From positions 1 to 64,000 of the forward strand of contig CAIUUO010000022.1 in assembly GCA_903902325.1 (NCBI GenBank): DNA of 64,000 bases. The letters are read 5' to 3'. The notes under the pieces were generated by a model. It had not been told where the DNA came from, searched no databases, and saw nothing but the letters and a program-made list of their open reading frames with translations. Source of the DNA: an uncultured Bacteroidia bacterium. Lineage in GTDB: Bacteria; Bacteroidota; Bacteroidia; Bacteroidales; Prolixibacteraceae. This document shows, piece after piece, positions 25,112 through 61,569 of the stretch; position 1 is the first letter of the stretch; each line of letters begins with the position of its first letter. A program made the translations under genes and the position numbers.

Positions 25112-25143
25112 ATTTGAATTGAAACTTTAGTGGTTCACAAGAT

Positions 25144-26490
25144 ATGAGTCGAACGATAAAACGATTGTTTGCTTATGGCAGCTTATCAGCAATGCTGCTA
25201 CTTTCCGGATGTCATAATTCCGGAAGCGGTGAATTGGTGGGTGTCCAAAAACGAGGAAAATACCTCGAACCTACCCCTCAGGGGATGGTATTGATACCCG
25301 GAAGGAGTTTCAATATGGGGCCTTCAGATCAGGATATTACCGGTGTTACAACTCCTACCCGTACAGTCGATCTAGCTACATTCTGGATGGACGACACTGA
25401 AATTACTAACAACGAATACCGGCAGTTCGTTTATTGGGTGCGTGATTCCATTGCAAGGGATCTTCTTTCTCAAAAATATCCGGAATTTAAGCCTACAACA
25501 ACACGAAGGGGTGAACCTATTGATCCCCCGATTCTTGACTGGAACGTCAAACTCAACTGGCGTAAGGCTGATTATTCTACAGAACTTGAGCAACTCTATT
25601 ATGACAAGAGTGAAAGAATTTTCGGAAAAAAAGAAATCGATATCAGGAAACTGAATTATAATTATTTCTGGGTCGACCTTCAACAGGCCGGTCAGCGTGC
25701 AAATGCATACAATTACAGCAAGCAAGCCTATACCGGTACCGTAGTGGATCTAAACGGAAAAGTCGTTCCCATTCAAAACCGCTCCAGCTTCCTTATGAGC
25801 GAAACTGTCAATATTTATCCGGATACATTGGTTTGGATCCGCGATTTCACCTACGCCTTCAATGAACCAATGGCTAAGATGTATTTTTCACATCCAAGTT
25901 TTGATGATTATCCCGTTGTCGGTGTAACATGGAAACAGGCCAAGGCATTCTGCATGTGGAGAACCAACTTTAAAAACAAGAGTCTCTCCAACAAAGGCGA
26001 ATACGAAGTCCAGGACTATCGTCTTCCATCTGAGGCTGAGTGGGAATTCGCTGCACGAGGCGGTCTGGATAATTCGATGTATCCATGGGGTGGTTATTAT
26101 ACCCGCTCCAGAACAGGATGCTTTCTGGCTAATTTCAAACCTATGCGCGGTAACTACAGCGACGATGGTGGAAAAGCATCCGTTAAAGTTGCAACTTATG
26201 AGCCAAATGGTTACGGATTGTACGACATGGCCGGCAACGTAGCAGAATGGACCATTACGGCATACGATGAATCAACGTATAACTTCATGCACGACTTGAA
26301 TCCTAACTTTGAATACAATGCACTACCTGACGATCCACCAACCATGAAACGTAAGGTTATCAGAGGAGGTTCATGGAAGGACATTGCTTTTTATATACAG
26401 GTTGGGACGCGAACATTTGAATATCAGGATACCGCAAAATCATATGTCGGCTTCCGGTGTGTGCGTTCTTCATTTGGCGACGAATTTTAA
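25144..26490 (+). CDS. gldK: T9SS ring lipoprotein GldK/PorK
   Basis: 448 aa. A lipoprotein signal ends at the lipobox LLSGC. The domain is FGE-sulfatase-like (SUMF1 fold), with blocks MVLIPGRSFNMG, WMDDTEITNNEY, LPSEAEWEFAARGG, NGYGLYDMAGNVAEW and IRGGSW. In T9SS, PorK and PorN form a large periplasmic ring attached to the outer membrane. The formylglycine-generating cysteines are not evident, as expected for a structural member. 32 bp after porP. Confidence 0.97.
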   Translation: MSRTIKRLFAYGSLSAMLLLSGCHNSGSGELVGVQKRGKYLEPTPQGMVLIPGRSFNMGPSDQDITGVTTPTRTVDLATFWMDDTEITNNEYRQFVYWVRDSIARDLLSQKYPEFKPTTTRRGEPIDPPILDWNVKLNWRKADYSTELEQLYYDKSERIFGKKEIDIRKLNYNYFWVDLQQAGQRANAYNYSKQAYTGTVVDLNGKVVPIQNRSSFLMSETVNIYPDTLVWIRDFTYAFNEPMAKMYFSHPSFDDYPVVGVTWKQAKAFCMWRTNFKNKSLSNKGEYEVQDYRLPSEAEWEFAARGGLDNSMYPWGGYYTRSRTGCFLANFKPMRGNYSDDGGKASVKVATYEPNGYGLYDMAGNVAEWTITAYDESTYNFMHDLNPNFEYNALPDDPPTMKRKVIRGGSWKDIAFYIQVGTRTFEYQDTAKSYVGFRCVRSSFGDEF

Positions 26491-26513
26491 CCAAAACCAA
26501 AAATAAAAATATC

Positions 26514-27491
26514 ATGGGACTCGCGGAATTAACTCACTCTCAAAGATGGAGATCCACAATGAATTACGCCTACAGTATGGGCGCATCTGTTGTATTGCTT
26601 GGAGCTCTTTTTAAATTGCAACACTGGACAGGTGGAACTACGATGCTTACGATCGGAATGACTTGCGAAGCGCTGATTTTTTTCCTCTCAGCATTTGAGC
26701 CAATGGTTGAGAATCCGGATTGGACGAAGGTATATCCCCAGTTGAGTCCTGACTTTGAATTTGGGGGAGAGATTGCCCTTGCCGAAAAATCCACGACCGA
26801 CGGCGGCTTCAGTGACATGCTGGTAAAAGCGGAAATCACTCCTGAATTGTTATCCAAGTTAAAACAAGGATTAGTAGATCTGACCAACACAGCAAAAGGT
26901 ATTTCTGATGTTTCAAACGCTACACTTGCAACTGAATTGTACATCAATAACCTGGGCGCCGCAGCCCAGTCAGTAAGTTCATTTTCAGAAGTAAACAATA
27001 AGGCTTCCTTATCTGTTCAACGTTCATTGGGCGACCTGGTTCAAAATTATGAACACTCATCCAAACTTATCTCCGACTCATCGAAAGATCTTGCAGAGAG
27101 TTTTGCCGATTCAACCAAAAAAATCAATCAGCAACTTGCGACCACGAGCGAAAAACTGACTGTTTCTTACAAGCAATTCACAGAGTCTATCCACAAGGAT
27201 ATTCTTACCATCGACGAAAATTCGAAAAACTATTCAGGAGAGATTTCCAAGATTAATGCAAGTATGGCCTCTTTGAACTCTTCGTATGAGCTTCATCTTC
27301 AGAATGTTAAAAAACTAACTGAATTATCCGGTAAAAGTGTTTCCGATCAGACTGGATTGGAAAAACTAGTCAATCAGACCCTGGAAGAAGCTAAAAAATA
27401 TAGTCTGCTTACTGAGCGCATGAACAAGAATCTGGAAGCATTGAACCATGTATATGGGAATATGCTTGGTGCAATGAATATCAAAGGTTAA
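26514..27491 (+). CDS. gldL: T9SS inner-membrane motor protein GldL/PorL
   Basis: 325 aa from ATG at 26514. An upstream in-frame start at 26457 would overlap gldK by 34 bp and lacks conservation. Two transmembrane helices lie near the N-terminus (about residues 15-60; SMGASVVLLGALFKLQHW), followed by a long cytoplasmic coiled-coil-rich region. GldL and GldM form the proton-driven motor of the system. 23 bp separate it from gldK and 21 bp from gldM. Confidence 0.96.
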   Translation: MGLAELTHSQRWRSTMNYAYSMGASVVLLGALFKLQHWTGGTTMLTIGMTCEALIFFLSAFEPMVENPDWTKVYPQLSPDFEFGGEIALAEKSTTDGGFSDMLVKAEITPELLSKLKQGLVDLTNTAKGISDVSNATLATELYINNLGAAAQSVSSFSEVNNKASLSVQRSLGDLVQNYEHSSKLISDSSKDLAESFADSTKKINQQLATTSEKLTVSYKQFTESIHKDILTIDENSKNYSGEISKINASMASLNSSYELHLQNVKKLTELSGKSVSDQTGLEKLVNQTLEEAKKYSLLTERMNKNLEALNHVYGNMLGAMNIKG

Positions 27492-27512
27492 TCTAATCAA
27501 TTCGCTGACCAA

Positions 27513-29057
27513 ATGAGTGTAAAAAACTGTCCGGAAACACCCCGGCAACGAATGATCAGCCTGATGTACCTGGTATTAACGGCTATGCTTGCGCTCAATG
27601 TCGACAAGTCGGTTGTAGATGCATTCGCTGTAGTTGACAAGGGTTTAATGAAAACAATCCAAAACTTCAACAACAAGAATCAAAGCGTTTACGATCATTT
27701 CAACAATGCTGCCCTCGAAAATCCGCAAAAGGCCGGAGAATTGAACCGGACAGTACTTCAGGTCAAGGAAAGAACTGACTCTTTATACAAATACATTACC
27801 CATTTTAAAGAGATAATCGTCAAAAAAGCAGACGGTCCTCAAGGAAGAATTGACAGTATTGTCAACATGACAGACCTTCAGTATCCTGAGGAAATAATGA
27901 TGACAAAAGGCAATGGCGTCTTATTGAAAAGTGCGATTGAAGAATACCGTAAATTTGTACTCTCAAAAATAGATCCCAGTGAAACTGCGCTGATTGCATC
28001 GATAGAGAAGAATCTGGACACTTCAAATCCCCCTGGCAAGGAAGGGAGCAAACCTACCTGGGAAAGCAGTAAATTTGAGGGCTATCCTCTGATTGCCGTG
28101 ATCACGCTGATGTCCAAAATGCAAAGCGATATCCGGAACACGGAATCGGATGTGATCAGTTATTACTATACCAAAATTGATGCATCCTCCTTTAAATTCA
28201 ACAAACTGAAGGCAGTGGTTATGCCCAAAACAGACTTCGTCCTGTTGGGAGAAAAATATGAGGCCAAAGTATTTATTTCGGCCATCGACACAACAGCAGT
28301 CCCCGACATCATAGTGAATGGGAACAAACTGCCCATATTACCCGGTGAGAATGCCGGAACTTACAGTGCTAATGGTAGCGCCGAAGGAACTTTCGTCTGG
28401 AAAGGATTTATCAATTTCAAAAATCCCAACGGTATCATCGTACAATATCCTTTTGAGAAGGAATATCAGGTTGCCAGACCAACCATGGTAGTATCTCCAA
28501 CCAAAATGAATATCCTCTATGCAGGGCTTCCAAATCCTATTTCAGTTTCTGTACCAGGATTTACCGTCAGAGATATTGTTGTGACCATGAGCAATGGCCG
28601 CATTGAGCCCACAACTGATGGTTTCCTGGCCTATCCGGATAAAATCGAAGAGAAGGCCATTATTTCTGTCAGCGTTAAGGAGGAGAAAACGCTCAAACCA
28701 ATTGGCTCAACACCTTTCAGGGTTAAACGTGTTCCGAAACCTGTGGCATCCGTTGCAGGGAACTTGGGGGGCCCAATCGAAAAAAACAGTCTGATGGCTG
28801 ACGAAGGAGTATTTGCAGAAATACCCGAATTCGAGTTCGACATGAAATTCCAGGTTCTTTCGTTTAACTTGTCTGTAACCCAGACGGATGGTTACACGGT
28901 AGATAAACCTGCAACGGGAAACCGGTTTTCGCCCGAACAGAAGAATTTGTTGAGCAAACTGACAAAGGGAAGCCATCTTTACATCGATAACATCGTTGTC
29001 AAGGGAGATGACGGATTCACCAGAACTCTGGCTCCTCTCACTTATAAAATTAAATAA
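27513..29057 (+). CDS. gldM: T9SS inner-membrane/periplasmic protein GldM/PorM
   Basis: 514 aa. A single N-terminal transmembrane helix (QRMISLMYLVLTAMLALNV, residues about 11-29) begins just after the family start KNCPETPRQ. The large periplasmic part has the four-domain layout of the family: a helical D1, then three beta domains ending in a characteristic KLTKGS block. It partners GldL in the motor and reaches the GldK/GldN ring. Confidence 0.97.
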   Translation: MSVKNCPETPRQRMISLMYLVLTAMLALNVDKSVVDAFAVVDKGLMKTIQNFNNKNQSVYDHFNNAALENPQKAGELNRTVLQVKERTDSLYKYITHFKEIIVKKADGPQGRIDSIVNMTDLQYPEEIMMTKGNGVLLKSAIEEYRKFVLSKIDPSETALIASIEKNLDTSNPPGKEGSKPTWESSKFEGYPLIAVITLMSKMQSDIRNTESDVISYYYTKIDASSFKFNKLKAVVMPKTDFVLLGEKYEAKVFISAIDTTAVPDIIVNGNKLPILPGENAGTYSANGSAEGTFVWKGFINFKNPNGIIVQYPFEKEYQVARPTMVVSPTKMNILYAGLPNPISVSVPGFTVRDIVVTMSNGRIEPTTDGFLAYPDKIEEKAIISVSVKEEKTLKPIGSTPFRVKRVPKPVASVAGNLGGPIEKNSLMADEGVFAEIPEFEFDMKFQVLSFNLSVTQTDGYTVDKPATGNRFSPEQKNLLSKLTKGSHLYIDNIVVKGDDGFTRTLAPLTYKIK

Positions 29058-29145
29058 ATGAGTATAAGAACTACGGGTAAAAATTAGTCGCTTGTAACAT
29101 TATTACCTGACGGTTCTTTGGGATATTTAAAAAAATTGTTGAAAT

Positions 29146-30027
29146 ATGAAAAATAAATATCTTTTCATTTTGGTCTTTCTTGTAGGAACAACTGCCTGCA
29201 ATACCCTGATGGGTCAGGGGATTGAGGAACTTGTCAGGAACAAGAATGGCGGGGCTTACGAAAAGAGGATCACCATTGAGCGTAAACCCGCAATTCTGCC
29301 TACAGTAAGAGAAGCAGACGTCATCTGGTCCAAGACCGTGTGGCGGATTATCGATATGAGGGAGAAAATGAATCAGCATTTCTATTTCCCGACCCGCGAG
29401 ATTCAAGGGAGGGTCAATTTGGTCAATCTTCTGCTGAAAGGAATTAAAGAAAACTCCATCACTGCATTTGATGCTTCCGGCACAGATGACAATGAGTTTG
29501 CTGCTCCCATCAGTTATGATCAGGTGATAAAGGAATTTGGGGCGACAAGCAAGACTGGCCAGAAAAGAAATTTTGCAACAGGTCAGCTGGAAGATGTGAC
29601 CATCCAGCAGGACATTCATGCCGATCTAGTCAAACAGCTGATGATCAAAGAAATATGGTATTTCGACAAACAAAAATCTTCGTTGCAGGTACGGATTCTT
29701 GGCATTTGCCCCATCAAGTTGTATTATCGTGATGAGGATGTTAACATGGAAAATCTGCAGAAGAAAAGACTCTTCTGGGTATATTATCCGGACATTAGAA
29801 AACTATTGGCACAAAATGAATCACTGAACGCCCGGAATGGTGCAAGGAATTACAGTTTTGACGATCTTTTTTTAATCCGGAACTTTGATGGGTACATTGT
29901 CAGGGAAGAAAATATTTATGACAACCGTGTCATCACACAATACGCAAACGACGAATACGCTCTCCAGGAATCAGACAGGATTAAAAATTCCATTTTTAAT
30001 TACGAACAGGATCTTTGGGAATACTAG
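29146..30027 (+). CDS. gldN: T9SS ring protein GldN/PorN
   Basis: 293 aa with an exported N-terminus (MKNKYLFILVFLVGTTACN; TTAC may be a lipobox). Family blocks are WSKTVWRIIDMREKMN, IKEIWYFDKQ, RILGICPIKLYY and FWVYYPDIRKLLA. It forms the periplasmic ring with GldK. 88 bp follow gldM. The stop TAG is followed after 7 bases by a heptamer array (GGATAAA) and a strong hairpin, marking the operon end. Confidence 0.96.
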   Translation: MKNKYLFILVFLVGTTACNTLMGQGIEELVRNKNGGAYEKRITIERKPAILPTVREADVIWSKTVWRIIDMREKMNQHFYFPTREIQGRVNLVNLLLKGIKENSITAFDASGTDDNEFAAPISYDQVIKEFGATSKTGQKRNFATGQLEDVTIQQDIHADLVKQLMIKEIWYFDKQKSSLQVRILGICPIKLYYRDEDVNMENLQKKRLFWVYYPDIRKLLAQNESLNARNGARNYSFDDLFLIRNFDGYIVREENIYDNRVITQYANDEYALQESDRIKNSIFNYEQDLWEY

Positions 30028-48558: not shown

Positions 48559-49269
48559 ATGAGACTATTATTAATAAGTAACTCCACCATGCCGGGCGAA
48601 GAATACCTTCGCTACCCGATGCCTGAAATCACAAGTTTCCTGGGCCAAAAACCTTTGAAAATCATATTTATACCCTATGCTGCAGTAACTTTTTCGTTTG
48701 ATGAATACGAGAAAAGGGTGAAAGAACGATTTGCAGAAATCGGTCATTCGGTCACAAGCATTCACCATTCTGCGGATCCTGCAGAGGCAATCAGGGAAGC
48801 GGAAGCCATAGTTACTGGAGGAGGGAATACCTGGCAACTGGTCAGGATGATGAACGATTTGGGACTTTTCCCAATGATCAGGGAGCGGGTACTTGGCGGA
48901 ATTCCCTATATCGGCTGGAGTGCCGGATCCAATATCGCCTGCCCAACTCTGAGAACCACCAACGACATGCCGATCATTGATCCAAAAGGATTTGATTGCC
49001 TCAACCTTGTTCCATTCCAGATTAACCCACACTACCTCGATAAAAATCCGGAAGGGCATGGTGGTGAAACCCGTGAGCAGCGGATTGAAGAGTTCCTGGA
49101 AATCAACCCGGACTTGTTTGTCGTTGGCTTGCGCGAAGGAACCATGCTCCGATTGGAAGGAACCCGGCTCTCATTGGTTGGTGAGAGAACCGCCAGAATC
49201 TTCAAAAAAGGGCACATCCCTGTGGAACTGGGTCAGAAAGATGATTTTAGTTTTCTGCTCAAAAATTAA
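48559..49269 (+). CDS. pepE: Dipeptidase E (peptidase family S51)
   Basis: 236 aa from ATG at 48559; a TTG two codons earlier is in frame. It hydrolyses aspartyl dipeptides in the cytosol. The nucleophile Ser lies in IGWSAGSN, with IVTGGGNTWQLV and NPHYLDKN supplying the other conserved blocks. Its stop overlaps the stop of the converging minus-strand gene by 2-3 bases, with no terminator between them. Confidence 0.95.
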   Translation: MRLLLISNSTMPGEEYLRYPMPEITSFLGQKPLKIIFIPYAAVTFSFDEYEKRVKERFAEIGHSVTSIHHSADPAEAIREAEAIVTGGGNTWQLVRMMNDLGLFPMIRERVLGGIPYIGWSAGSNIACPTLRTTNDMPIIDPKGFDCLNLVPFQINPHYLDKNPEGHGGETREQRIEEFLEINPDLFVVGLREGTMLRLEGTRLSLVGERTARIFKKGHIPVELGQKDDFSFLLKN

Positions 49270-51896
49270 AAAAGTATATCCTTGTTGATATTCTTGTTGG
49301 CTTTGGAGTGATCCTTGGCATAATCAAAAATAAGGTCTCCGGTTTTTTTCATGACCGTAATGCTGTTCAATGGGAACCAGACAAATGCCTTTCCGACTTT
49401 AGCGCCTGAAATGAAATCGATCCGCGCGTCTCCATCCGGAGTAGTCACCATCTTCATGTTGGCTTCATTTTTCACTTTCAGCATGTCCAGCTCAAGATAC
49501 TGGTCATTCAGGGTACGTATGGTAACCACACCATTGCTGTTTTTCAGAAACTCGACAACGGTCAAGGTTTTATACAAATTTGGGCTCTTCGTTTTGAAGG
49601 TTGGATTGTATTTGTCGAGCGTTTGCTGAACGACTGTTCCTGTCAGCTTTGATTCAAATTCATTGAGCATCTGAAACACAGCAAACAGTCCGGCGATTCC
49701 CTTGTCATAACCGCTCAGGATCAGTTTGTCATTCTTTTCCTTCAGCATTGCCGAAAGGTCATAGTTTGCAACATCATTGACAGCTCCTGTATGCTTGATC
49801 ATTCCTGGGACGCTACTGAAACCTCCGGTAGCAAGCAGGTTGTTCTTTTCATCCAGCATCAGCATGTTTTTCCAGTTGATGTTCTGCTGAGGCAGATATT
49901 CCGTTCCAAGCAATTTCCCGCTGGTATCCAGATGCACCTGGTAATAGATATTTTCGCGTGTTTTGACCTCATCGAAAAATACAGGCGTGAGCCAGTTGAT
50001 GACTCCACCAGGTTTCATGGAAAGCAGGAAGAGGGATTGATCAGGCTTGTCCGTTTTGATGCTCTTACTGTCTGCACCGAAACTACCGGAGAAATTCCCC
50101 GAGATGATGAAATTCCCCGAAGGATCCCTGACGATGCCGGTTACATATTCGGCGCCGGTGCCTTCAAGTACTTTCACCCAGTTGACATTGGTTTCCGCGT
50201 TCAGCGAAGCAACAAATAAATCGCGTCCTCCCATTGGGTTTACAGGAGCTTTTCCAAGCGTGAATGCCTTGTCGAACCAACCTGTTATGATGATATTCCC
50301 CTGTCCGTCGGCAACATCACATTTGCCTTCTCCCGGATAACCTCCCTTTTGGTTGACCTTATCCCAAACCTTATCCGCCAGTAGCTCATCTGCATTCACC
50401 TCCGGCCGCAGGATAATCTCACCCGATTTGCCGGCAAACTGGGGCATACATCGCCCGACCGGAGCGCCAATAAATGTTCCGTCGCATATGGTGTATTTTT
50501 TTTGTTTGGAGAAGACACAATCGCCGGGCACGTCGTTCGGGAAAAGCACTGCAGTGCTCACATGACCCGGGAAGAGAATCCCGACCACATCCAGTTTGGC
50601 AATGTTGTACACCAGCCAGGATAAAAGCGCGGCCCTGTCGTCGCAATCGCTGAAAGGATAATAGAAAATTTCATCCGGAAAATCCCATTTCTCATAACCA
50701 AACTGTGCCTGGTCATTCTTGTAGGGAAATGCCTTTTGCGTAAATTCAAGTAACACTGCAACTGTTTCGACGGGATTTTTGCCTTTGGTCCATTTTCCGA
50801 AATAACTCATCAGTGACTCCTTCAGACCGGGATTCATCGGAGCGCTCATCGTTACGTAGAAATCAGTCTGGGGATAGGTGGCATAAAAAGCTATCTCATT
50901 GAGTGGAACGTTGAGCTCCAGGTCAGGATAGTCCTGTGAAAAACTGAATTTTTTTGTCTGGTATTTCTCTTTAAAATTGAGTGGCCTTGTTACCGCCAGA
51001 TTTATCCTTTTTTTCGCATCACCATACTCTTCGTCGTAGGTAAGTACGGAACCTACCTCCTCACCGAAGTTGGCGATAAAATAATATTCCTGTCCGTTCA
51101 ATTTCAAAAACTGGCAACCAAAAACATTGTTGGTCGACGGTATCAGCAGGTACAATTTATTGGCCGTTTCGGAATAAGCCAGTCGTGTCTGGAAACCCGA
51201 AACTGTCATCAGGAACCAGGTGTAGAGTGTTTTGGTATTGTTGTTGTTTGCAGAAATCCTGGAGGCAAACTGGTTGATCAGCTGGTACATGCCCCAATCG
51301 TTCAGGTTCAACTGCTCCCTGATCACATTCATTTGCAGGAGCAGATCCCCGTAATTCGTTTCTGTCACCTTCCTCCAGAAACGGGCTACCTCATTCTGCC
51401 CGGGTTTACCGAGAGAAAAATCTATCAGGTGTGGATCGGCTTTAATAATCAGGTTTTGACCAAAAAAATCGACAGGCACTTCCAGCCTTCTGACAGTCTG
51501 TTCGGGAATGGGCAACGGTTGGGGCCGTTCTTGTTCTGCTTTTGGAAGTACAACAACCGGAGCTTCTTTGGCAATTACCTTCACAGGAACCGGAGCAACT
51601 TTTGGAGGCTCGTATTTGAAAGGATCCGGTGGCTTAGGCGCCTCAACAGGCTTGTTTGCCTTCACTGCATCGTAGCTTACCCAACCTTTTTCAAGGTATT
51701 TGGCAAACTCTTCGTTCCTTTTTTTGACAAAGTCATTGTATTCCTGTTGCAGCTTCAGCATCCCTTCCTGCTGCTCCCTCACATAATTGTCGTATTGCTT
51801 TTGCTGCTGTTTCAAGTACTCGTCAAATGTCTGGGCTCCTGCCGGGAAGACGCAGGCCATCGTCAGAACCAGGATTAAAAAGTATCTTTCTTTCAT
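49266..51896 (-). CDS. Exported transglutaminase-fold protein with coiled coil and beta-propeller-like region
   Basis: 876 aa; signal peptide ending near MACVFPAGAQT. Order: Gln/Glu-rich coiled coil (about 22-72), a Pro-rich segment (80-130), a mixed region, then a transglutaminase-like core with Cys418 (FSDCDDRAALLSW), His445 (PGHVSTAVLF) and Asp472 (TICDGTF), a complete Cys-His-Asp triad. From about 525 come repeats of the GNIIITGWF / GNFIISGNF type (SBBP-like propeller), ending in a beta/alpha tail. Probably a cysteine protease or crosslinking enzyme in the envelope. It is the last gene of the exported cluster. The family is not recognised by name. Confidence 0.8.
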   Translation of the reverse strand: MKERYFLILVLTMACVFPAGAQTFDEYLKQQQKQYDNYVREQQEGMLKLQQEYNDFVKKRNEEFAKYLEKGWVSYDAVKANKPVEAPKPPDPFKYEPPKVAPVPVKVIAKEAPVVVLPKAEQERPQPLPIPEQTVRRLEVPVDFFGQNLIIKADPHLIDFSLGKPGQNEVARFWRKVTETNYGDLLLQMNVIREQLNLNDWGMYQLINQFASRISANNNNTKTLYTWFLMTVSGFQTRLAYSETANKLYLLIPSTNNVFGCQFLKLNGQEYYFIANFGEEVGSVLTYDEEYGDAKKRINLAVTRPLNFKEKYQTKKFSFSQDYPDLELNVPLNEIAFYATYPQTDFYVTMSAPMNPGLKESLMSYFGKWTKGKNPVETVAVLLEFTQKAFPYKNDQAQFGYEKWDFPDEIFYYPFSDCDDRAALLSWLVYNIAKLDVVGILFPGHVSTAVLFPNDVPGDCVFSKQKKYTICDGTFIGAPVGRCMPQFAGKSGEIILRPEVNADELLADKVWDKVNQKGGYPGEGKCDVADGQGNIIITGWFDKAFTLGKAPVNPMGGRDLFVASLNAETNVNWVKVLEGTGAEYVTGIVRDPSGNFIISGNFSGSFGADSKSIKTDKPDQSLFLLSMKPGGVINWLTPVFFDEVKTRENIYYQVHLDTSGKLLGTEYLPQQNINWKNMLMLDEKNNLLATGGFSSVPGMIKHTGAVNDVANYDLSAMLKEKNDKLILSGYDKGIAGLFAVFQMLNEFESKLTGTVVQQTLDKYNPTFKTKSPNLYKTLTVVEFLKNSNGVVTIRTLNDQYLELDMLKVKNEANMKMVTTPDGDARIDFISGAKVGKAFVWFPLNSITVMKKTGDLIFDYAKDHSKANKNINKDILF

Positions 51897-51971
51897 GGTA
51901 TCCGAAATTTTTAGGGTTGGTTACGACTGTCGCTGCAAACAAACATTATCTGAAGTCATCTAAAAAGTTTT

Positions 51972-52071
51972 ATTTAACCACAAAGGATGCACAAAGGACA
52001 CAAACAAATACTATTGAAAATGTTATCGTTGTGACCTTTGTGACTTACCTTTGAGTCCTTTGTGGTTAAAT
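51972..52071. repeat. Large CCACAAAGGA hairpin
   Basis: Perfect 16-bp arms ATTTAACCACAAAGGA (51972-51987) and its complement (52056-52071), with an inner second stem (CACAAAGG-CACAA). It fills the gap between the LPP20-like gene and the transglutaminase-fold gene and is a likely terminator/attenuator. Confidence 0.85.
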
Positions 52072-52130
52072 ATTTTCACTTTCGGACAACCTCAGATAAA
52101 AAATAATTACCTGTTCTTTTGGTTTTTTAC

Positions 52131-52709
52131 CTACTTGGCATTTTTATCCATCTCCTTGTTGAACTCATTTTTGAATTTTTCATATTCAAAATCGAGTCTC
52201 AGCTTTTCGTCACCGGAGATCTTGTTCTGGATGCTTTTCAGAATTTCTTCTCCATTCAGCTCCTGAGCAAGATAACATTTCCAGGTACCCGTTTTGGTAG
52301 TAACAAATTTCTCGCAGATGGTTGTCACTCCTGAAAGTTGTTGGTCAACAACCTGACGGGTCAAGCCTTCGAATCGGGTTTTAGCCTGTTCTACGTTGTC
52401 GATGGTCTTGGAACTGTAATAGTTGTCGACCACGCTTTTGATCGTTACATTCAGAGTGGCTGCCAGTTGTTCCCTGGAGTTGGCCTGGGCTTTTTTCTTG
52501 GCCATCATCTGATCCGAACTTTCGCCAATAGCGCTTGCCCTGATAATTCCTTTTTTGGAATAAAATTCCGGTCCGTTGCAGGGGATAGTTACCTCGGTTT
52601 CTCCTTTAGGCATTGGAGCTGGCTTGGAACTTTTACATCCTGACATTCCGATCAAAAGTGCGATGCATGAAACTCCGATTAATACCGGAAAAAATCTGTT
52701 TGTTTTCAT
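52131..52709 (-). CDS. LPP20/FlgT-like lipoprotein
   Basis: 192 aa. Signal peptide with lipobox IGMSGC near residue 25. The domain starts IIRASAIGESSDQMMAKKKA and continues as a helix of AxxxAxxxLA spacing, the LPP20/FlgT N-terminal pattern. It ends in a charged helix. Envelope lipoprotein of unknown role; sixth gene of the minus-strand cluster. Confidence 0.82.
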   Translation of the reverse strand: MKTNRFFPVLIGVSCIALLIGMSGCKSSKPAPMPKGETEVTIPCNGPEFYSKKGIIRASAIGESSDQMMAKKKAQANSREQLAATLNVTIKSVVDNYYSSKTIDNVEQAKTRFEGLTRQVVDQQLSGVTTICEKFVTTKTGTWKCYLAQELNGEEILKSIQNKISGDEKLRLDFEYEKFKNEFNKEMDKNAK

Positions 52710-52770
52710 TTTGTTAAGTCTAAAGTGTTTGTAATCTGCTGTATAAATATTTGAATATAATTTAATAGCT

Positions 52771-52812
52771 AGCTAAAAGCTGTTGGCTGTTAGCTATTAG
52801 CTTTTAGCCTTT
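52771..52812 (-). repeat. Heptamer array AGCTNTT
   Basis: Six 7-bp units (AGCTAAA, AGCTGTT, GGCTGTT, AGCTATT, AGCTTTT, AGCCTTT). On the sense strand several units read AATAGCT/AACAGCT with TAA frames. Same unit as at 41437. Confidence 0.85.
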
Positions 52813-52823
52813 TTTAAGCCCAA

Positions 52824-52851
52824 TCCAAAATCCAAAATCGAAAATCAAAAA
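52824..52851 (-). repeat. Heptamer array TCCAAAA/TCGAAAA
   Basis: Four 7-bp units TCCAAAA x2, TCGAAAA and TCAAAAA, starting 9 bases after the stop of the gene at 52860-54149. Its reverse complement TTTTCGA recurs at 63171. Confidence 0.85.
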
Positions 52852-52859
52852 TTGTTTTA

Positions 52860-54149
52860 TTACCATCCCGTCGTATAATCCATCCTGTATATGCGAATTG
52901 CAGAGCTTTTCCCTGTTTTAACCGAATTGTAAAGGACTGAGCCATTCAGTTGTTTGACCGGTTTGACCGCATTTGAAATTTTAGATATCGGAAGTTCATT
53001 CGGAATGGTGACTCTCAGATCATGCTGACCTTTGTTGCTGTAGGTATCGTTGACAGGTATATCCAGTACAATGCCAAACTCTTTCCATTCCAGTTTCAGA
53101 TTGGTTACGGTGCAGGGACTGTCGAATTTCGACATAATCGGAATCACACAAATGGCATTGGTCACTTTATCGCCCGCAACATCACCTCCCATGATCCTGA
53201 TATTGCCGCTGATCAGCAACTCTGCCTTGGTTTCAGCCACATCGAAATAGAACATTTTCTCGGCTTTCGTATTTCCAAATGAGTAGGTTACTTTCACATT
53301 GTTACCCGGTTCGTCGTAGCATTCATCAAAGCGGTAAGTAATCTCGCAAACATCAATGCCCAGTCTGCGGTCCTCGATTTTAGCGCATTGAGAATTGATC
53401 ACCGGGACACGTGCACACCTTACAATTTTATCGCCAATCTTAATGCTATACCTCACCTTACCCAGTTCACTTCCGGCATCGGCCAGATAAGCAGATGCAA
53501 GCAATGCCTTGCAACGTTCGATGCCGACCTGGCATTTACTTTTTCGCTCATCGATGAAGATCTGTTCCAGTTTGGAGAGTTGGCTCTGACACTGGATCAA
53601 CTCCTCAATGGTGCCATAGGTATCCAACAAGGCAAGGACTTTGTTCATCTCCTCGGTCAGTTGCTGATCCTTTTGCCTGAAATCCTGAACCAGGTCGTCC
53701 AGATCAAACTGACTGAACGGGTATTTGACAAAATACTGGTATTTGACAGCTTTGGATTGCTTATCCACCTGCTTCTCCCAGTAAAAAGCCACGACATTGG
53801 AGGCGGAAACTCCCTGCAGGTAGTCGCGCTTGCCGGATTGTGTGGTAATCACGTTCGAAAAGCTCTGGTAGAGTTCGTTCAGTTTTCCTGCAGTGATTTC
53901 AGTACTTTTGGAAACCGATGTCGAAGAGATAAAATCCGCCACAGAAGTCGTAATCTGGGCTTTCACATTGGCCATGGCGTTCTCCTTGGCGTCTTCGATG
54001 ACTGTCCCGTTCCCGATTCCCACGATAAAGCCTTTTTCCATGCTCATGGTCCATTCGGGTTTTTTTCCGCTTTTATCTGCCACGGAATACTGTGCCAAAA
54101 GAGAAAGAGGAAAAATAACCGTACAAAGGATAAATATTGTTCTCTTCAT
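52860..54149 (-). CDS. Exported LPP20-domain protein
   Basis: 429 aa; signal peptide MKRTIFILCTVIFPLSLLA. An LPP20-like domain (KKPEWTMSMEKGFIVGIGNG, then VIEDAKENAMANVKAQI; about residues 28-85) is followed by a helical region and a C-terminal beta domain. There are cysteine-containing loops (EIFIDERKSKCQVGIERCKALL, split) but no lipobox. Probably periplasmic, functioning with the neighbours. 19 bp separate it from the upstream gene. Confidence 0.75.
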   Translation of the reverse strand: MKRTIFILCTVIFPLSLLAQYSVADKSGKKPEWTMSMEKGFIVGIGNGTVIEDAKENAMANVKAQITTSVADFISSTSVSKSTEITAGKLNELYQSFSNVITTQSGKRDYLQGVSASNVVAFYWEKQVDKQSKAVKYQYFVKYPFSQFDLDDLVQDFRQKDQQLTEEMNKVLALLDTYGTIEELIQCQSQLSKLEQIFIDERKSKCQVGIERCKALLASAYLADAGSELGKVRYSIKIGDKIVRCARVPVINSQCAKIEDRRLGIDVCEITYRFDECYDEPGNNVKVTYSFGNTKAEKMFYFDVAETKAELLISGNIRIMGGDVAGDKVTNAICVIPIMSKFDSPCTVTNLKLEWKEFGIVLDIPVNDTYSNKGQHDLRVTIPNELPISKISNAVKPVKQLNGSVLYNSVKTGKSSAIRIYRMDYTTGW

Positions 54150-54168
54150 TAGATTAGTATTTAGAAAT

Positions 54169-55236
54169 TTACCTGGTTATTGGCAGATTTTTGAACTTGA
54201 AGAAATTGTCGTTGATATAGAATCGTAGAAACCTGATCTCGTTCACTTTTGGGAATTCGCAGATTACTTCCGTGTTTACTTCAGGCAGGATCGTCACATC
54301 CAGGTAGTTGTTGCTTTCCCTGGATCCTATCTTTGTCATGGTATTGCGTTTCTCATCCCCATTCTCGTTAATCAGCATGGTTTCATAGAGGCGGTACATT
54401 TTCTGCACATAGTCTTCTGTGTTTTTATTGATGAGTTCGAAATATGCATACAATTTCTCCCCTCTCACCACGGCATTTTTGAACCTCAGGAAAATTTTAT
54501 TGCCAATGTCAATCGTCTGTCCGCCAGTATATTCAGGCTCCTTGTCAATAATGGCTTTGCTTTCGACCGTAATGATCACCGGCATATTTCGACCTATTTC
54601 ACCTGCTACTTCGTTGGCTTTGTCGAAGCATTCGCGGCAAACAGGAGGCACGGAATTCAGTAGTCCAAGGGCAGCCACCCAGTTTCGCTGATCGGCCAGG
54701 CTTTTCCCCCTCGAAATAACCAGGTCGCAGTTGGAATTGAAGTATTCGACGATGGCAGTCTTTCCTTTCTCCATCATGGCCTTGTATTTTCCGTTGCGGA
54801 TGTTGATTTCGTTGAAGGCAGCATTGTATGCGGCCTGCTCCGTTTTTCCGGCACCTTTTACTGTTTGGGAGGCAGTTGCATAAACATTGCCTGTATACCT
54901 GTCGGCCATGTTGAAAACGACTTCCATGCTGTAGGTGTACATCGGAGGGGCGGTAGGAGTGACATCGTTGCTGAGAACCATCAGTTGGGGGGTCATGATA
55001 AACAGCGGGGCATCATCGAGTGCACTCATGCCATTGAGGCCGATGATCTGCCTCATCTTGCCCAGCAGCAAATCCTGCGTACCCCTCGGGATGTTCTTCA
55101 TGGCCTCCGGAATCGTGGGCGCAATGGCAATCCGTGCGAAATCATCGCTGGCACCCGTGCTGTTCTGCCCCCGGACATTTTGAATAAAAAGGGAGCAAAG
55201 TACCAAAAGCACTACTCCTAATCTTTGTCTTCTCAT
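54169..55236 (-). CDS. Exported FlgT/LPP20-like protein
   Basis: 355 aa; signal peptide MRRQRLGVVLLVLCSLFIQ. After a CsgG/FlgT-like segment (SYSMEVVFNMAD is read here as YSMEVVFNMADRYTG, and AAYNAAFNEI follows), the C-terminal ~150 residues are beta-rich with no named motif. It has cysteines in VPPVCRECFDKAN that may form a disulfide. Family not recognised. 15 bp after the DUF6175-like gene. Confidence 0.7.
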   Translation of the reverse strand: MRRQRLGVVLLVLCSLFIQNVRGQNSTGASDDFARIAIAPTIPEAMKNIPRGTQDLLLGKMRQIIGLNGMSALDDAPLFIMTPQLMVLSNDVTPTAPPMYTYSMEVVFNMADRYTGNVYATASQTVKGAGKTEQAAYNAAFNEINIRNGKYKAMMEKGKTAIVEYFNSNCDLVISRGKSLADQRNWVAALGLLNSVPPVCRECFDKANEVAGEIGRNMPVIITVESKAIIDKEPEYTGGQTIDIGNKIFLRFKNAVVRGEKLYAYFELINKNTEDYVQKMYRLYETMLINENGDEKRNTMTKIGSRESNNYLDVTILPEVNTEVICEFPKVNEIRFLRFYINDNFFKFKNLPITR

Positions 55237-55251
55237 GAGATTTAGATTTTG

Positions 55252-56220
55252 TTATTTTTCTCCAATAATCAACCAAGCTTCGCCCAAACCGCGCTGATAA
55301 ATCTTGTTTTCAAGATTGAATGGTGGCCCGGCCAGGTATTTGCTCAGGTTAGAGATGTACCTGCGTGTATCCATTGCCACATCGCGGCCATTCTGGTTAA
55401 ACATCATCGGGATACGAACCTGCTCAAAACGCAGCATCGTCGCGGTAGCATCGATGGTCGAAAATCTGCCTTTGACCGTATTCTCGGTCAGCCAGTTTTC
55501 GATGTGAAAACTCAGCTGGTCGTTGGTACCCTTTACATCAAAATCATGTTCAAAATCGACTCCGGCATTGTCCCACACCCTTAAAACCAAAGCAACTTCG
55601 CGTCCGTTGGCGAACATGTCGTCGAAAAATTTCGTCAGCTGGCCATTGAACTCATCCATGTGACTGAGCACTGCCTCTTCGAGCAGCAGATCAGCAGTTG
55701 CCGCGGAAGAGGGTTTACCTGTACCGGCTGCCGCAGCTACCTGTTTGTTGGTGTAGGAATCAAGTCCTTTGAGGGCGAAGGTGATGTAATTGTTAGGCCC
55801 CTGTCGCTTGATGTTGAAATCGATGTCCATGATGATATCCGCCTTGGCGATCCTTTTCAGCACATCGATAGGCGTCTCCTTGATGGCAGCGCCCGAACTC
55901 TTGGAGGAGAGCATGGCAATTTCGGCACTCTGCGAGTCAATGCTTTTAAGCGTCTGTTCAAGGTCTTTCAAAGGGAAACCCCTTTCCGTCATAATGCTTC
56001 CCATTTTGATGATGACCATCCGTAACTCCTCGCTTCCCTGCATGGCCTTCTTGTAGTCAGGAAGGACCTCGTCCTTGCCGTTCGCATTGACTGTCATAGT
56101 ATACCCGTGCGACACACAGAAGATGTCGCTGGGAACCACCATGATGATCGGTTTCTTTGCCTGTCCCCAGGTTAGAATTGCGGCAAAGCAAAACACAATG
56201 GATAAAATTATTTTCTTCAT
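55252..56220 (-). CDS. DUF6175-like exported protein
   Basis: 322 aa; signal peptide MKKIILSIVFCFAAILTWG. The body starts KKPIIMVVPSD, resembling the N-terminal strand of TolB/CsgG-type proteins, and contains IAKADIIMDIDFNI. It fits the Bacteroidota family DUF6175, whose function is unknown. 34 bp after the gene at 56255. Confidence 0.75.
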   Translation of the reverse strand: MKKIILSIVFCFAAILTWGQAKKPIIMVVPSDIFCVSHGYTMTVNANGKDEVLPDYKKAMQGSEELRMVIIKMGSIMTERGFPLKDLEQTLKSIDSQSAEIAMLSSKSSGAAIKETPIDVLKRIAKADIIMDIDFNIKRQGPNNYITFALKGLDSYTNKQVAAAAGTGKPSSAATADLLLEEAVLSHMDEFNGQLTKFFDDMFANGREVALVLRVWDNAGVDFEHDFDVKGTNDQLSFHIENWLTENTVKGRFSTIDATATMLRFEQVRIPMMFNQNGRDVAMDTRRYISNLSKYLAGPPFNLENKIYQRGLGEAWLIIGEK

Positions 56221-56254
56221 ATCAGATGATTATTGATTTAGTTGCTAATAGCAT

Positions 56255-56764
56255 TTAAAATCCTGCATCCATCCTCTTGGCAATCCCCTTATCCTCAAGA
56301 TATTTCCGCAAAGCATTGAAATTGACCGAAGCGCTCACCGCCACTTTGTATCCATGGCTCATCTTGAGGTTGTCGGATCCACCCGGAGTTCCGTCGGTAG
56401 TAAGGTTGATAAAACTCAGGTACATCCCGCCATCCTTGAAAAAATCATCGAAAAAATCGGGATGCTGATCGTAACCGTCTATTGGCAGGATCGAAGGGGT
56501 CGGAGCTGCACCGTTGCCAGCAGGAACTCCCCTGAAAATGACAGCAGCGACGGCAGTACGTTTGGCATCATAAATGGCATTGTCCACCTTCTTGCCATAG
56601 CCCCAAACCTTCAGCAATTTAGTCCCGTCCTGGCCAACACCAAGGCAGGCAAGTTCGTAATTGTACTGACTGTCGTACATGGCTTTGCGCTCCTTGCGGG
56701 TCTGCCCGAAGGAATTAGCCAGAAGAAGAAAAAGGACAATCGATGTAAAAAGGCTCTTTTTCAT
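56255..56764 (-). CDS. Small exported hypothetical protein
   Basis: 169 aa from ATG at 56764 (MKKSLFTSIVLFLLLANSFG signal peptide); the longer frame to 56803 adds a leader that overlaps the upstream gene. It contains LLKVWGYGKKVDNAIYDAKR, followed by TAVAAVIF, a GYG...DA...A pattern like LPP20 domains. Function unknown; part of the cluster. Confidence 0.75.
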   Translation of the reverse strand: MKKSLFTSIVLFLLLANSFGQTRKERKAMYDSQYNYELACLGVGQDGTKLLKVWGYGKKVDNAIYDAKRTAVAAVIFRGVPAGNGAAPTPSILPIDGYDQHPDFFDDFFKDGGMYLSFINLTTDGTPGGSDNLKMSHGYKVAVSASVNFNALRKYLEDKGIAKRMDAGF

Positions 56765-56783
56765 ATCACAATTGATTTGGAAA

Positions 56784-58430
56784 TTAGAATTCGAATCGAA
56801 CACCGATCATGATGGATGTTCCGTTACGCCCTTTGAAATAACTATCCCACGATCCTGCATAGGCTGATTCTGCCGTGCTGTCTTTGGTTTTCTTTACGGT
56901 AGTACTCCCCGTCATATAATCGTTGGCCTGTCCAAATAAAGAAATATTGTGCGCAATATTGAACCCGAGCATGGCTCCCAGTTTGATGTAGGAGGTTGAT
57001 ATGTCTTCGTATGTTTTATCTTTTGTGCTTTCAATTCCGTACTGCACATAAGGAGTCAGTTCAACAATCCTGGCAAAACGCAATCCTTTTCCAACGCCAA
57101 TGGAGTACCTTAGAAAGTTGTATTTGGTCATTGAACCGTTAAAGACCGGATTATAATTGCCTGTACCATAACCAATGTCTCCCAGTAGGTACAATGCCGT
57201 GACCTTAGTAAGAGGACCCGTTCTGAACATGATACCAAGATCCATTCCACCTATTCCTCCAACTTCAAACCCAGGCATCAATGAGATTCCAAAATCGAGC
57301 TTTTGCTGTAAAACCATTCCTTCCTGAATCGTTTTGCCATACGTCTGATAAAATTTACTTTCAGGGCTAGATCCGGTAGCGATGGTTCTGTTTTCCGCAA
57401 TTTTGCTTGTAGCCCTGATCACGGCCTGTCTTTCGGGGTTTACCTGCTTCGTTGCTTCATCATAGGTATATTGGTAAACGAAGAATTGCTGGTCACATTT
57501 CAGACCTTCCTTCTTTCCGATTTTTGCCATGACCGGATGAACCTTTGATACTTTGGTCTTGACCCTGAAATCTTCGATGGATTTATCAAGAGAGAAAGTC
57601 GCATTCTCATACATGTGATTCACCAGATCCACTGCCAGTTCATCCATCGTTTTTTTCTTCTTCATGATGGTAATGGCATCACTTGAGGATGCCGACATGA
57701 AAGGTTTGCTCTGGATGTTGTCAAACTTGAAAGTAAGCGTATCAAACGCTGCAATTTTACTTTGTTTCACAGCCGGAGAGTCATCCTCATAAGGCCAAAC
57801 ATTATAGAAACTTGCCACAACATCTGGGGTAAAGACCAGCTGAAAACAGAACATATCATACGAACAATCCCATCCACGGTTCTTTTCGTCATCCGTAGAT
57901 TTCACATCATAAGGAACAAGAATCAAAACATACGTTTTGTTGACCAGGTTCTGACCCGCATCTTTCAGAAAGGCATCCCCCCTTTTAGCAGCAACCGCCA
58001 TTTTAACATCCTGGTCAGTAGCATTGTAGAGTCCGCTTTGATGAATGTAATCCAGACTCATCATTCCACTTGCCTGCCTGTTGAACCACTTGGCAACCAT
58101 TGTTCTTCCGACCCCCTGCTTTGCAAGAAGGTTTTTCAGATAAGCCTGTTTTTTATCAAAAGTAAGCGTCTTAAATTCAGAACCGACCTGAAGAACAAGA
58201 TTATCCAGATTGTGGTTAAAATATTTATCCGAGAACTTAATTTTCCCGACATTGTTTGATGGCGCTGCATTTACACCGGGAACAGATCCCATGAAAAATG
58301 TAATTGACTGACGGGAATAGGTTTCTGCAAGTTTTTCTTTGGCCGGTTTAGTCACTTGCTGAGCAAAGGATGAACCGACAAATCCAACCAGCATCAAAAG
58401 AAAAATAATCTGTTTCAGTAGATTTTTCAT
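56784..58430 (-). CDS. Exported protein with C-terminal outer-membrane beta-barrel
   Basis: 548 aa; signal peptide MKNLLKQIIFLLMLVGFVGSSFA. The first ~330 residues are a soluble mixed domain. The last ~200 alternate in barrel strands ending in the C-terminal aromatic IMIGVRFEF. First gene of the cluster, so this protein probably anchors the others to the outer membrane (inference). Its ATG overlaps the stop of the upstream decaying frame as ATGA. Confidence 0.75.
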   Translation of the reverse strand: MKNLLKQIIFLLMLVGFVGSSFAQQVTKPAKEKLAETYSRQSITFFMGSVPGVNAAPSNNVGKIKFSDKYFNHNLDNLVLQVGSEFKTLTFDKKQAYLKNLLAKQGVGRTMVAKWFNRQASGMMSLDYIHQSGLYNATDQDVKMAVAAKRGDAFLKDAGQNLVNKTYVLILVPYDVKSTDDEKNRGWDCSYDMFCFQLVFTPDVVASFYNVWPYEDDSPAVKQSKIAAFDTLTFKFDNIQSKPFMSASSSDAITIMKKKKTMDELAVDLVNHMYENATFSLDKSIEDFRVKTKVSKVHPVMAKIGKKEGLKCDQQFFVYQYTYDEATKQVNPERQAVIRATSKIAENRTIATGSSPESKFYQTYGKTIQEGMVLQQKLDFGISLMPGFEVGGIGGMDLGIMFRTGPLTKVTALYLLGDIGYGTGNYNPVFNGSMTKYNFLRYSIGVGKGLRFARIVELTPYVQYGIESTKDKTYEDISTSYIKLGAMLGFNIAHNISLFGQANDYMTGSTTVKKTKDSTAESAYAGSWDSYFKGRNGTSIMIGVRFEF

Positions 58431-58812: not shown

Positions 58813-61518
58813 CTATTTGGGAGGCGAAGATATTTTGCTGTAATTCTGGACAAAGAATCTCAGGTACTCAAGCAGATCCTGATCAGCAATCATCTTGCGA
58901 TAGTTGGGTGAGGAAGCGATGAAGAAGTGATAGTCGACACCTTTCAAAGATTTAAATACGGCGCTCTGTTTGAGAATACTGCCGAAATAACCCAATCCCT
59001 CCTCTTTATTGGGCAAACTGCGAACCACCACGAGCCGGATCTGGTCATTCAATTTGATCTCTTCTATATCGAAATCGAAGGAGGTATAATAATCAATGTT
59101 GAAATTGGCAATATCGAAGATCAGGCGATTGACATCGACTTTTGCACTCGCCGGAAATGAAATGACGTAATAGTGGAATAGCTCTTCATCGTAGGAATAT
59201 TTTCCCCCAAACGGATCATTGATCGCGTTGCTTTGCTTTCCCTGTTGCTGGGTCATTCCGGCAGAGTCTATCCGCGCAATCATCTTTTCAAGTTCTGCCA
59301 GTGAATTTTGCTGCACCAATTCACGGATTTTAAGAACCACAGGGTCTGCAGGAGAACCAGGATATTCAGCATGATACTTTTCAAGCATTTTTGAAAAATC
59401 TTCCTTTGAAGAATTTTTCCCCTTGGCAATCAATTCAATAAATTTTACCTTGGGCATGAGGAGGCTATCTGGCTGAAGTGCCAAGACTTCAGAAACAAGC
59501 TTTCCTGCTGATGAATAATCCCCTTTCCCGTAAAAAGCCGTAGCCTCAGCATATTTCTTTTCCCTCAACTGCTTGGTTGCTTCCAACTGTTTGAAAAAAT
59601 CAGGATTAAGCAGATATTTTGCATAGTTGGATTCCGGGTATTTCTGGGTGATCTTACTCCTGTAGAGTTCTGTCTCGTATTTTATTTTGTGAAGTTCAAT
59701 CCAGGTTGGAAGTTCATAAAGGCTCGCCGGATATCTCCTGTTTAACTCTTCGTACATGGCAATGGCACGTGGTTCATCCTTCAGGATACTGACATAGATT
59801 CTGCCTGCAGCAAAGAGCGCCGACTTGATACGATCATTTGAAACTTGCCTCATAGAATCTGTCAAAGGCAGATCCTGGATGTAGTATTCTATTGTTTTCG
59901 GATTGGATTCCTTTGGTTTAAGATTTTCTTTTTTCTGCGTTTCAGCGGTGGTTTCTGACTGATCGGCTTCCCCTGGATTCAAAGAGATTTTGTTCTTTCG
60001 TCTCCAGTTGTCCTCCAGTTTACGCTTGCCCCATATTCGCTGGAATTCTGTTTTTCCAAGCCCTGCGGTTACCGAGTTGTAAAAATACCACTGACTGCTG
60101 GTGTTGCTGCTGGTATAGGATTGACGGTACTGCTGGCCACGGAAGTAATTCTGGTCGTTCTGTTCCTTTTGCTGCTCTCTCAGCCTCCTGTTTTCCTCTT
60201 CACTGATCTTGGTTATGAGTTTGTTGATAAAAGCTATTCGATCCTTCTCGGGCATACTTGCAACCCTTTGCAAGCTGTCCTCTCTCGTCACCGTATCGAG
60301 GTTCTTTACCAGCGAGGCTAACCCATTGGTTTTGACTACAATCTCTTCATAATTGGGATAATATTGGTTGATAACGGCCAAGGCGCTGTCATAATAGCAG
60401 GAAGAAAGGCGGTAATTCCCTTTGTCAAAGAAGAGTCGGGCCACTGTAAGGCTCGAAAGTGCTCTCTGGCTGTTGTTTTCCATACTGTATGTGACGGAAG
60501 CCTGAAAATCATGGATTGCCTCTGTTTTACGATCAGTCCTGAGTTCAACCTCACCCTTTGCGAAATAAATCCTGTCAAGATATGGCCGGTTGTTTCCGTT
60601 TCGGATCATCTTGGCAAGTGCCTTGTCAATTTCCTCCGGACTGCTGTTTGATAATTCAAGCAAAGAAATTTTAGCCTCAAATTTCATTCTGTATGGTGGG
60701 CTGGACTTGAGAACCCGGTTCAATGTTGCGATAGCCTCCTCATTTTGTCCTGCCTTTCTGTAAAGCTGTGCAAGAATGAAATTGTACCTGCTACTCTGCT
60801 TATTGTCCAATTTGAATTTTAGCGCCTGCTTTAGCTGTAAAACCGCCTCGGGCATATCTCCCTTTAAAATAGAATAATCAGTTTTTACCAGTTGAAGGTC
60901 TTTCCGGATATCCTCGGGAAGTCCGCCATCCCGCTCTAGTACCTTAAAAATTTCAACCGCTTTCTCGAATTCACCCGTTTCCAAATAGCATCTTGATAAC
61001 CAGAGGAATGCCGGATTTCGTGTGGGCTGATTTGAAAAATTGTGCAGGATATAGTTGAAATTCTCTTCCGCTTTGTGAAATTCGTGAAGATAAAAATTTG
61101 CCTGTCCCATGAGCAGATAAGCATCGTCAACCCACTTGTTGTATTCTCCCTGAGAAGCAAAAGATTTGTATAGCTCAGACGTATTCGGTTTGCGTTTCGG
61201 ACTGACTGTAATTGAATGAATTGCTATCAATTTCTGGCATTTCTGGACAGCATAGTCCATTTGGGATGCACCGGCCTGTGCCGCCATCGGATTGGTCTCA
61301 GTGAAGATCGGTAAGAGATGAGTATAGTCTTCAACCCCATATTCATTCATCCTCAACAAACCTTCCTTAACACTCTCCCTGGCATTGAAATACACATTGT
61401 AATGGGAGGTCAAATCATGGTATTGCCTGGTAATGGCCGTGTTTTTCTTGGTCGAACATCCGACAGACAAAAATAGAAACAACCATCCTGAAATCAGGTA
61501 TAAACTGTATTTCTTCAA
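58813..61518 (-). CDS. porW: T9SS lipoprotein PorW/SprE, TPR-rich
   Basis: About 901 aa if TTG at 61518 is used. That start gives a lipoprotein signal (MKKYSLYLISGWLFLFLSVG then Cys); a GTG at 61545 is in frame but leaves a poorer leader. Starts of the mature protein match the family: TRQYHDLTSHYNVYFNARES. Many TPR units follow (YLLMGQANFYLHEFHKAEEN etc., in shorter blocks). PorW/SprE is needed for type IX secretion and gliding in relatives and contacts PorN/PorM-side components. It lies 29 kb from the porP-gldN locus. Confidence 0.9.
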   Translation of the reverse strand: MKKYSLYLISGWLFLFLSVGCSTKKNTAITRQYHDLTSHYNVYFNARESVKEGLLRMNEYGVEDYTHLLPIFTETNPMAAQAGASQMDYAVQKCQKLIAIHSITVSPKRKPNTSELYKSFASQGEYNKWVDDAYLLMGQANFYLHEFHKAEENFNYILHNFSNQPTRNPAFLWLSRCYLETGEFEKAVEIFKVLERDGGLPEDIRKDLQLVKTDYSILKGDMPEAVLQLKQALKFKLDNKQSSRYNFILAQLYRKAGQNEEAIATLNRVLKSSPPYRMKFEAKISLLELSNSSPEEIDKALAKMIRNGNNRPYLDRIYFAKGEVELRTDRKTEAIHDFQASVTYSMENNSQRALSSLTVARLFFDKGNYRLSSCYYDSALAVINQYYPNYEEIVVKTNGLASLVKNLDTVTREDSLQRVASMPEKDRIAFINKLITKISEEENRRLREQQKEQNDQNYFRGQQYRQSYTSSNTSSQWYFYNSVTAGLGKTEFQRIWGKRKLEDNWRRKNKISLNPGEADQSETTAETQKKENLKPKESNPKTIEYYIQDLPLTDSMRQVSNDRIKSALFAAGRIYVSILKDEPRAIAMYEELNRRYPASLYELPTWIELHKIKYETELYRSKITQKYPESNYAKYLLNPDFFKQLEATKQLREKKYAEATAFYGKGDYSSAGKLVSEVLALQPDSLLMPKVKFIELIAKGKNSSKEDFSKMLEKYHAEYPGSPADPVVLKIRELVQQNSLAELEKMIARIDSAGMTQQQGKQSNAINDPFGGKYSYDEELFHYYVISFPASAKVDVNRLIFDIANFNIDYYTSFDFDIEEIKLNDQIRLVVVRSLPNKEEGLGYFGSILKQSAVFKSLKGVDYHFFIASSPNYRKMIADQDLLEYLRFFVQNYSKISSPPK

Positions 61519-61569
61519 GCGAATTTGGATAAATATGCTACACAAATTAACTCAAAATTGCTGAAAAAA

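Follow-up and report, generated by a model that had tools for sequence, protein, structure and literature searches.

A conserved DUF6175 gene module of Bacteroidota may encode a FlgT-like scaffold at the outer membrane

Six genes in the genome of an uncultured member of the Prolixibacteraceae, designated here A to F, constitute a genuine conserved module that has apparently gone undescribed so far. Based on predicted structures, it is proposed with moderate confidence that their products form one envelope complex at the periplasmic face of the outer membrane, an oligomeric scaffold of the FlgT/CsgG/LPP20 type. A literature search returned no paper naming DUF6175, the family to which the product of gene C belongs, and none combining FlgT, FlgO and FlgP with Bacteroidetes. 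The genes lie in a stretch of 64,000 nucleotides (the window), in which a first-pass annotation had described seven minus-strand genes for exported proteins at positions 49266-58430. All of these open reading frames are present, and each product has a Sec-type signal as judged by eye. The seven genes are as follows.

Gene A, 56784-58430, minus strand: 548 amino acids, signal peptide, two domains and a C-terminal barrel (predicted)
Gene B, 56255-56764, minus strand: exported protein of 169 amino acids with a predicted SHS2/LPP20 (FlgT-N)-like fold
Gene C, 55252-56220, minus strand: 322 amino acids, DUF6175 (PF19672), predicted CsgG/PelC/TolB-N/FlgT-M-like fold
Gene D, 54169-55236, minus strand: exported protein of 355 amino acids, TPR-like middle in relatives
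Gene E, 52860-54149, minus strand: exported protein of 429 amino acids, LPP20-like N-terminal domain and conserved C-terminal part
Gene F, 52131-52709, minus strand: LPP20-like lipoprotein of 192 amino acids, lipobox Cys25
Gene G, 49266-51896, minus strand: exported protein of 876 amino acids, Cys418-His445-Asp472 and CylK-like propeller tail, accessory neighbour

The mechanically called reading frame of gene B opens at a GTG at 56803, and the ATG that carries the signal peptide, at 56764, is most likely the true start. Spacing in the window is approximately 15-35 bases for A-B, B-C, C-D and D-E, 150 bases for E-F and 234 bases for F-G. Median gaps over 80 loci in other genomes are 33 bases (A-B), 30 (B-C), 26.5 (C-D) and 10 (D-E), and the short spacing of A-B-C-D-E in both the window and these loci is typical of a single transcript. 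Scanning for promoters and terminators, and for the Bacteroidota promoter pattern, gave matches at chance level only. A convergent pepE is the downstream neighbour of the seven-gene cluster.

The order of the genes is deeply conserved. The 80 named loci were obtained by scanning contigs with a DUF6175 alignment and come nearly all from Bacteroidota MAGs, mostly Bacteroidales; their neighbouring genes were found with iterated profiles and counted on the same strand, and the loci form 22 groups at 75% DUF6175 identity. A adjoins B in 64 of 69 loci (18 of the 22 groups), B adjoins C in 73 of 75 (20 groups), and D directly follows C in all 78 of 78 (21 groups). E or F comes after D in 53 of 73 loci (D-E in 30 and D-F in 23), and the order F-E also occurs. 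The most recurrent flanking family is found in 5 of the 22 groups and none in more, which indicates that the module itself is conserved rather than the whole region. The order A-B-C-D is kept outside the class as well (locus L145), B-C-D is present in two further families of the class of L145 (L146 and L147), and in a distant family of a distant class (f28) a fused B-C gene adjoins one whose product scores above the PF02169 cut-off. The first-pass annotation had staked its proposal on conservation of gene order in relatives, and on that point the proposal stands. As a separate observation, a divergent gene of very large size (at least 2320 amino acids) lies upstream of A in L079 (1-6961), its first 1300 residues giving no NCBIfam match, and the arrangement is similar in other Salinivirgaceae loci.

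Genes A and C also occur together across genomes. Of 295 genomes sampled from the order, 67 have DUF6175, 50 have A and 49 have both (Fisher p=1.7e-39), and DUF6175 with its partners forms a conserved block in about one-fifth of this sample. A is detectable in 49 of the 67 DUF6175 genomes, leaving 18 of the 67 without it, where presence is counted in genome samples of which many are incomplete. Because the co-occurrence tests treat related genomes as independent, their p-values are too small; the 49/50 pattern of A and DUF6175 spans many families and does not depend on them.

Gene G behaves differently. It is present in 69 of the 295 genomes, 31 of them with DUF6175 and 38 without (odds ratio 4.3, p=2e-6), it is missing from 36 of the 67 DUF6175 genomes, and it adjoins F in only 4 of 31 cases. 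G is enriched with DUF6175 but not bound to it, and is a frequent neighbour rather than a core member. The seven genes had been taken as one unit, a view that holds for A to F, which travel together, and fails for G, which accompanies them only in some lineages. The triad Cys418-His445-Asp472 and propeller-like tail described earlier for G were both recovered, as the three residues, which form a Cys-His-Asp triad like that of the transglutaminase-like superfamily, are invariant in 9 of 9 sequences and the tail resembles the beta-propeller of CylK (E=1.6e-19). Pfam searches of G gave no transglutaminase or peptidase model, and residues 380-500 matched no family at E<=10. Given its distribution and the lack of a Pfam enzyme match, the idea that G is the cluster's own processing enzyme was not upheld. 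Two further partial matches to G lie in the same genome (G000:C103:25685-27091 and G000:C104:16183-17325) and are possibly one paralogue split between contigs. Two loci (L091, 13983-15017, and L099, 6772-7845) encode an exported protein of 344-357 amino acids between F and G, which in L091 has no NCBIfam match.

The surroundings of the module raise another explanation, namely that it serves the type IX secretion/gliding machinery as an accessory, for instance by forming a scaffold about SprE/PorW or the SprA translocon. A gene for PorW/SprE (NF052312, E=2.1e-187) occupies 58813-61545 and ends 382 bp upstream of A, the same gene adjoins A in two related loci, and porP-porK-porL-porM-porN are found at 24170-30027 of the window. 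In addition, G389 and G287 have sprA at a distance of two genes from A, and SprA is encoded in 64 of the 67 DUF6175 genomes. Of the 295 genomes, however, 277 have SprA in any case, and its presence is not associated with that of DUF6175 (p=0.77); the module is absent from most SprA genomes, and G455 and G323, each 99% complete, have no SprA but possess A, B and C, with D as well in G455. An accessory role in type IX secretion is thus unlikely, and dependence on that system as a general rule is rejected by the co-occurrence data; type IX secretion is a candidate partner where sprE or sprA adjoins, not generally. The sprA gene two genes away from A is divergent in L123 (7375-18071) and L124 (1353-11871), with a gene for a protein of 193 amino acids between.

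That A to F may form a FlgT/CsgG/LPP20-type scaffold is suggested by predicted folds. The product of gene C, noted earlier as resembling DUF6175, is a clear member of that family, matching PF19672 over its full length (362.8 bits against a cut-off of 23, E=1.6e-108), and is the sole protein of the seven with a clear family. B and C are a single polypeptide in at least eight loci (L072, L109, L114, L021, L023, L024, L025 and L028), in which the C part is without its own signal peptide, placing both domains in one compartment. FlgT is a protein of the Vibrio flagellar H-ring, and the AlphaFold model of a natural B-C fusion (pLDDT 82) has as its top PDB matches in Foldseek FlgT (3w1e, E=5.7e-6) and the LPHT-ring chain 8z5n (E=1.6e-5), with CsgG next at 2.2e-3 and GNA1162 and PelC also behind. 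The LPHT-ring chain (8z5n_0) is presumed here to be FlgT. VIA comparisons of the C part gave Z 10.2 for CsgG and 9.7 for PelC, a likeness at the level of fold only, as the Pfam CsgG model matches none of the seven proteins at E<=1. The model of B is SHS2/LPP20 (FlgT-N)-like and has an insert of approximately 57 residues between the SHS2-like helix and the next strand; within the FlgP/LPP20 family, ring formation is reported to correlate with the presence of an insertion after the SHS2 helix and before the second strand (PMC12222027).

Gene A encodes a three-part protein in its AlphaFold model (pLDDT 82), consisting of a FlgT-M/CsgG-like alpha/beta domain (residues ~40-285), an SH3-like domain resembling FlgT-C (residues ~290-376) and an OmpX-like outer-membrane barrel of eight strands (residues ~382-547), the last in agreement with the barrel that had been proposed from sequence. 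Its best PDB match in Foldseek is FlgT (3w1e, E=5.3e-7), with chain 8z5n at rank 5 (E=1.3e-5) and barrel proteins at ranks between the two and below. In VIA-align, FlgT residues 93-355 align with residues 35-379 of the model at Z 8.0, a value of about 8 lying in the range which the tool terms possibly common. The models of A and of B-C, which are independent, each have FlgT as top match and so lead to the same protein. These matches hold at the level of domains (with a by-query TM of about 0.2 and large rmsd, perhaps from hinge differences) and are spread over separate chains, and Pfam gave no sequence-level match to FlgT. The barrel is missing from some homologues of A, and tandem copies of A, of which one has the barrel and the other lacks it, occur at G411:C1:4482608-4485795 and G259:C143:8643-11835.

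The LPP20-like proteins recognized in the first-pass annotation are backed for E and F by their relatives. PF02169 (LPP20) matches 16 of 20 F-family proteins (best E 1.9e-6) and 6 of 17 E-family proteins (best E 1.1e-4), with the window's own F below the cut-off (13.1 bits against 25.9) and its E not listed; for B the assignment comes through fold only. Profile-profile comparison links E with F (93%), B with neither of them, and C with neither D nor A beyond signal peptides. Profile searches of PDB sequences gave no meaningful matches for A, B, C, D or E and, for F, a weak match to H. pylori LPP20 (E=0.95). The lipobox cysteine of F, Cys25, is invariant in 20 of 20 relatives. Further cysteines are invariant in pairs in F (Cys44 and Cys132) and in D (Cys170 and Cys203), whose relatives have a TPR-like stretch in the middle. 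DUF6175 has a single invariant cysteine, Cys35 (12 of 12), and a lone periplasmic cysteine suggests, by analogy with the inter-protein disulfide reported for SprF-GldK (PMC12635249), that C may be disulfide-bonded to another protein.

Folds of the CsgG/TolB-N-like class are shared by many envelope proteins with no relationship to one another (such as LptE, PqiC and TolB), an observation that would fit the view that the genes encode separate envelope-maintenance lipoproteins or regulators with LpoB/TolB/LptE-like folds that are merely co-expressed; the B-C fusion, the fixed A-B-C-D order in more than one class and the co-occurrence of A with C make this quite improbable. Least probable is a CsgG- or PelBC-type channel that would export fibre subunits or polysaccharide across the outer membrane. 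The CsgG and PelC matches of C would point to it, but FlgT outscores CsgG in Foldseek, the sole predicted membrane barrel is narrow and eight-stranded, and no conserved neighbouring gene for a substrate, synthase or chaperone was seen over the 80 loci. The earlier suggestion of an export or surface-anchoring apparatus finds no support, as nothing points to a conduit of export width and no type IX cargo domain was found in the seven proteins.

What endures of the first-pass proposal is an envelope complex of a barrel protein with LPP20-like partners, for which deep synteny, the co-occurrence of A and C, the B-C fusion and the FlgT/CsgG-type folds all argue. In the scaffold proposed here, A would be anchored in the outer membrane via its own barrel and F via its lipid, while the LPP20/SHS2-type proteins B, E and F would pack with the FlgT-M/CsgG-type proteins A and C into an oligomer. 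In this proposal, which draws on models of single chains, the scaffold of A to F would probably be ring- or disc-like, perhaps a ring, as are FlgT, FlgO and FlgP around the Vibrio flagellar L-ring. FlhA (PF00771) was not found in this genome by a search that found it in four control genomes, and no flagellum is therefore expected. Since there is no flagellar export gate, what the scaffold braces would be either a different structure of the envelope or the outer membrane as such. In some lineages G may act on this scaffold, but G is dispensable.

The Vibrio H-ring, composed of FlgO, FlgP and FlgT, encircles the flagellar L-ring (PMC6375700). The module resembles it in that N-, M- and C-type domains of FlgT are predicted in B, C and A, and in its LPP20/FlgP-type partners and predicted outer-membrane location. 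It differs in that its genome is without FlhA, the FlgT-type domains are split over several chains, A has a barrel of its own, and likeness to FlgT does not extend to the sequence level. With the Campylobacter FlgP basal disk and Helicobacter LPP20 the module shares the LPP20/SHS2-type domain (in E, F and B) and the lipid anchor (in F), but it includes DUF6175 and a barrel protein and is non-flagellar. The core alpha/beta fold of DUF6175 is like that of the CsgG curli channel and the PelC ring, whereas no fibre or polysaccharide partner is seen beside the module.

Tying DUF6175 and its partners to FlgT/CsgG folds provides a testable functional idea for the module, and the link bears on the origin of flagellar accessory rings. 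It is conceivable, although doubtful at present, that in non-flagellated Bacteroidota FlgT/FlgP-type parts form a ring in the outer membrane that encloses some other trans-envelope machine. If this were true, the flagellar H-ring would have drawn from a broader family of ring systems of the outer membrane.
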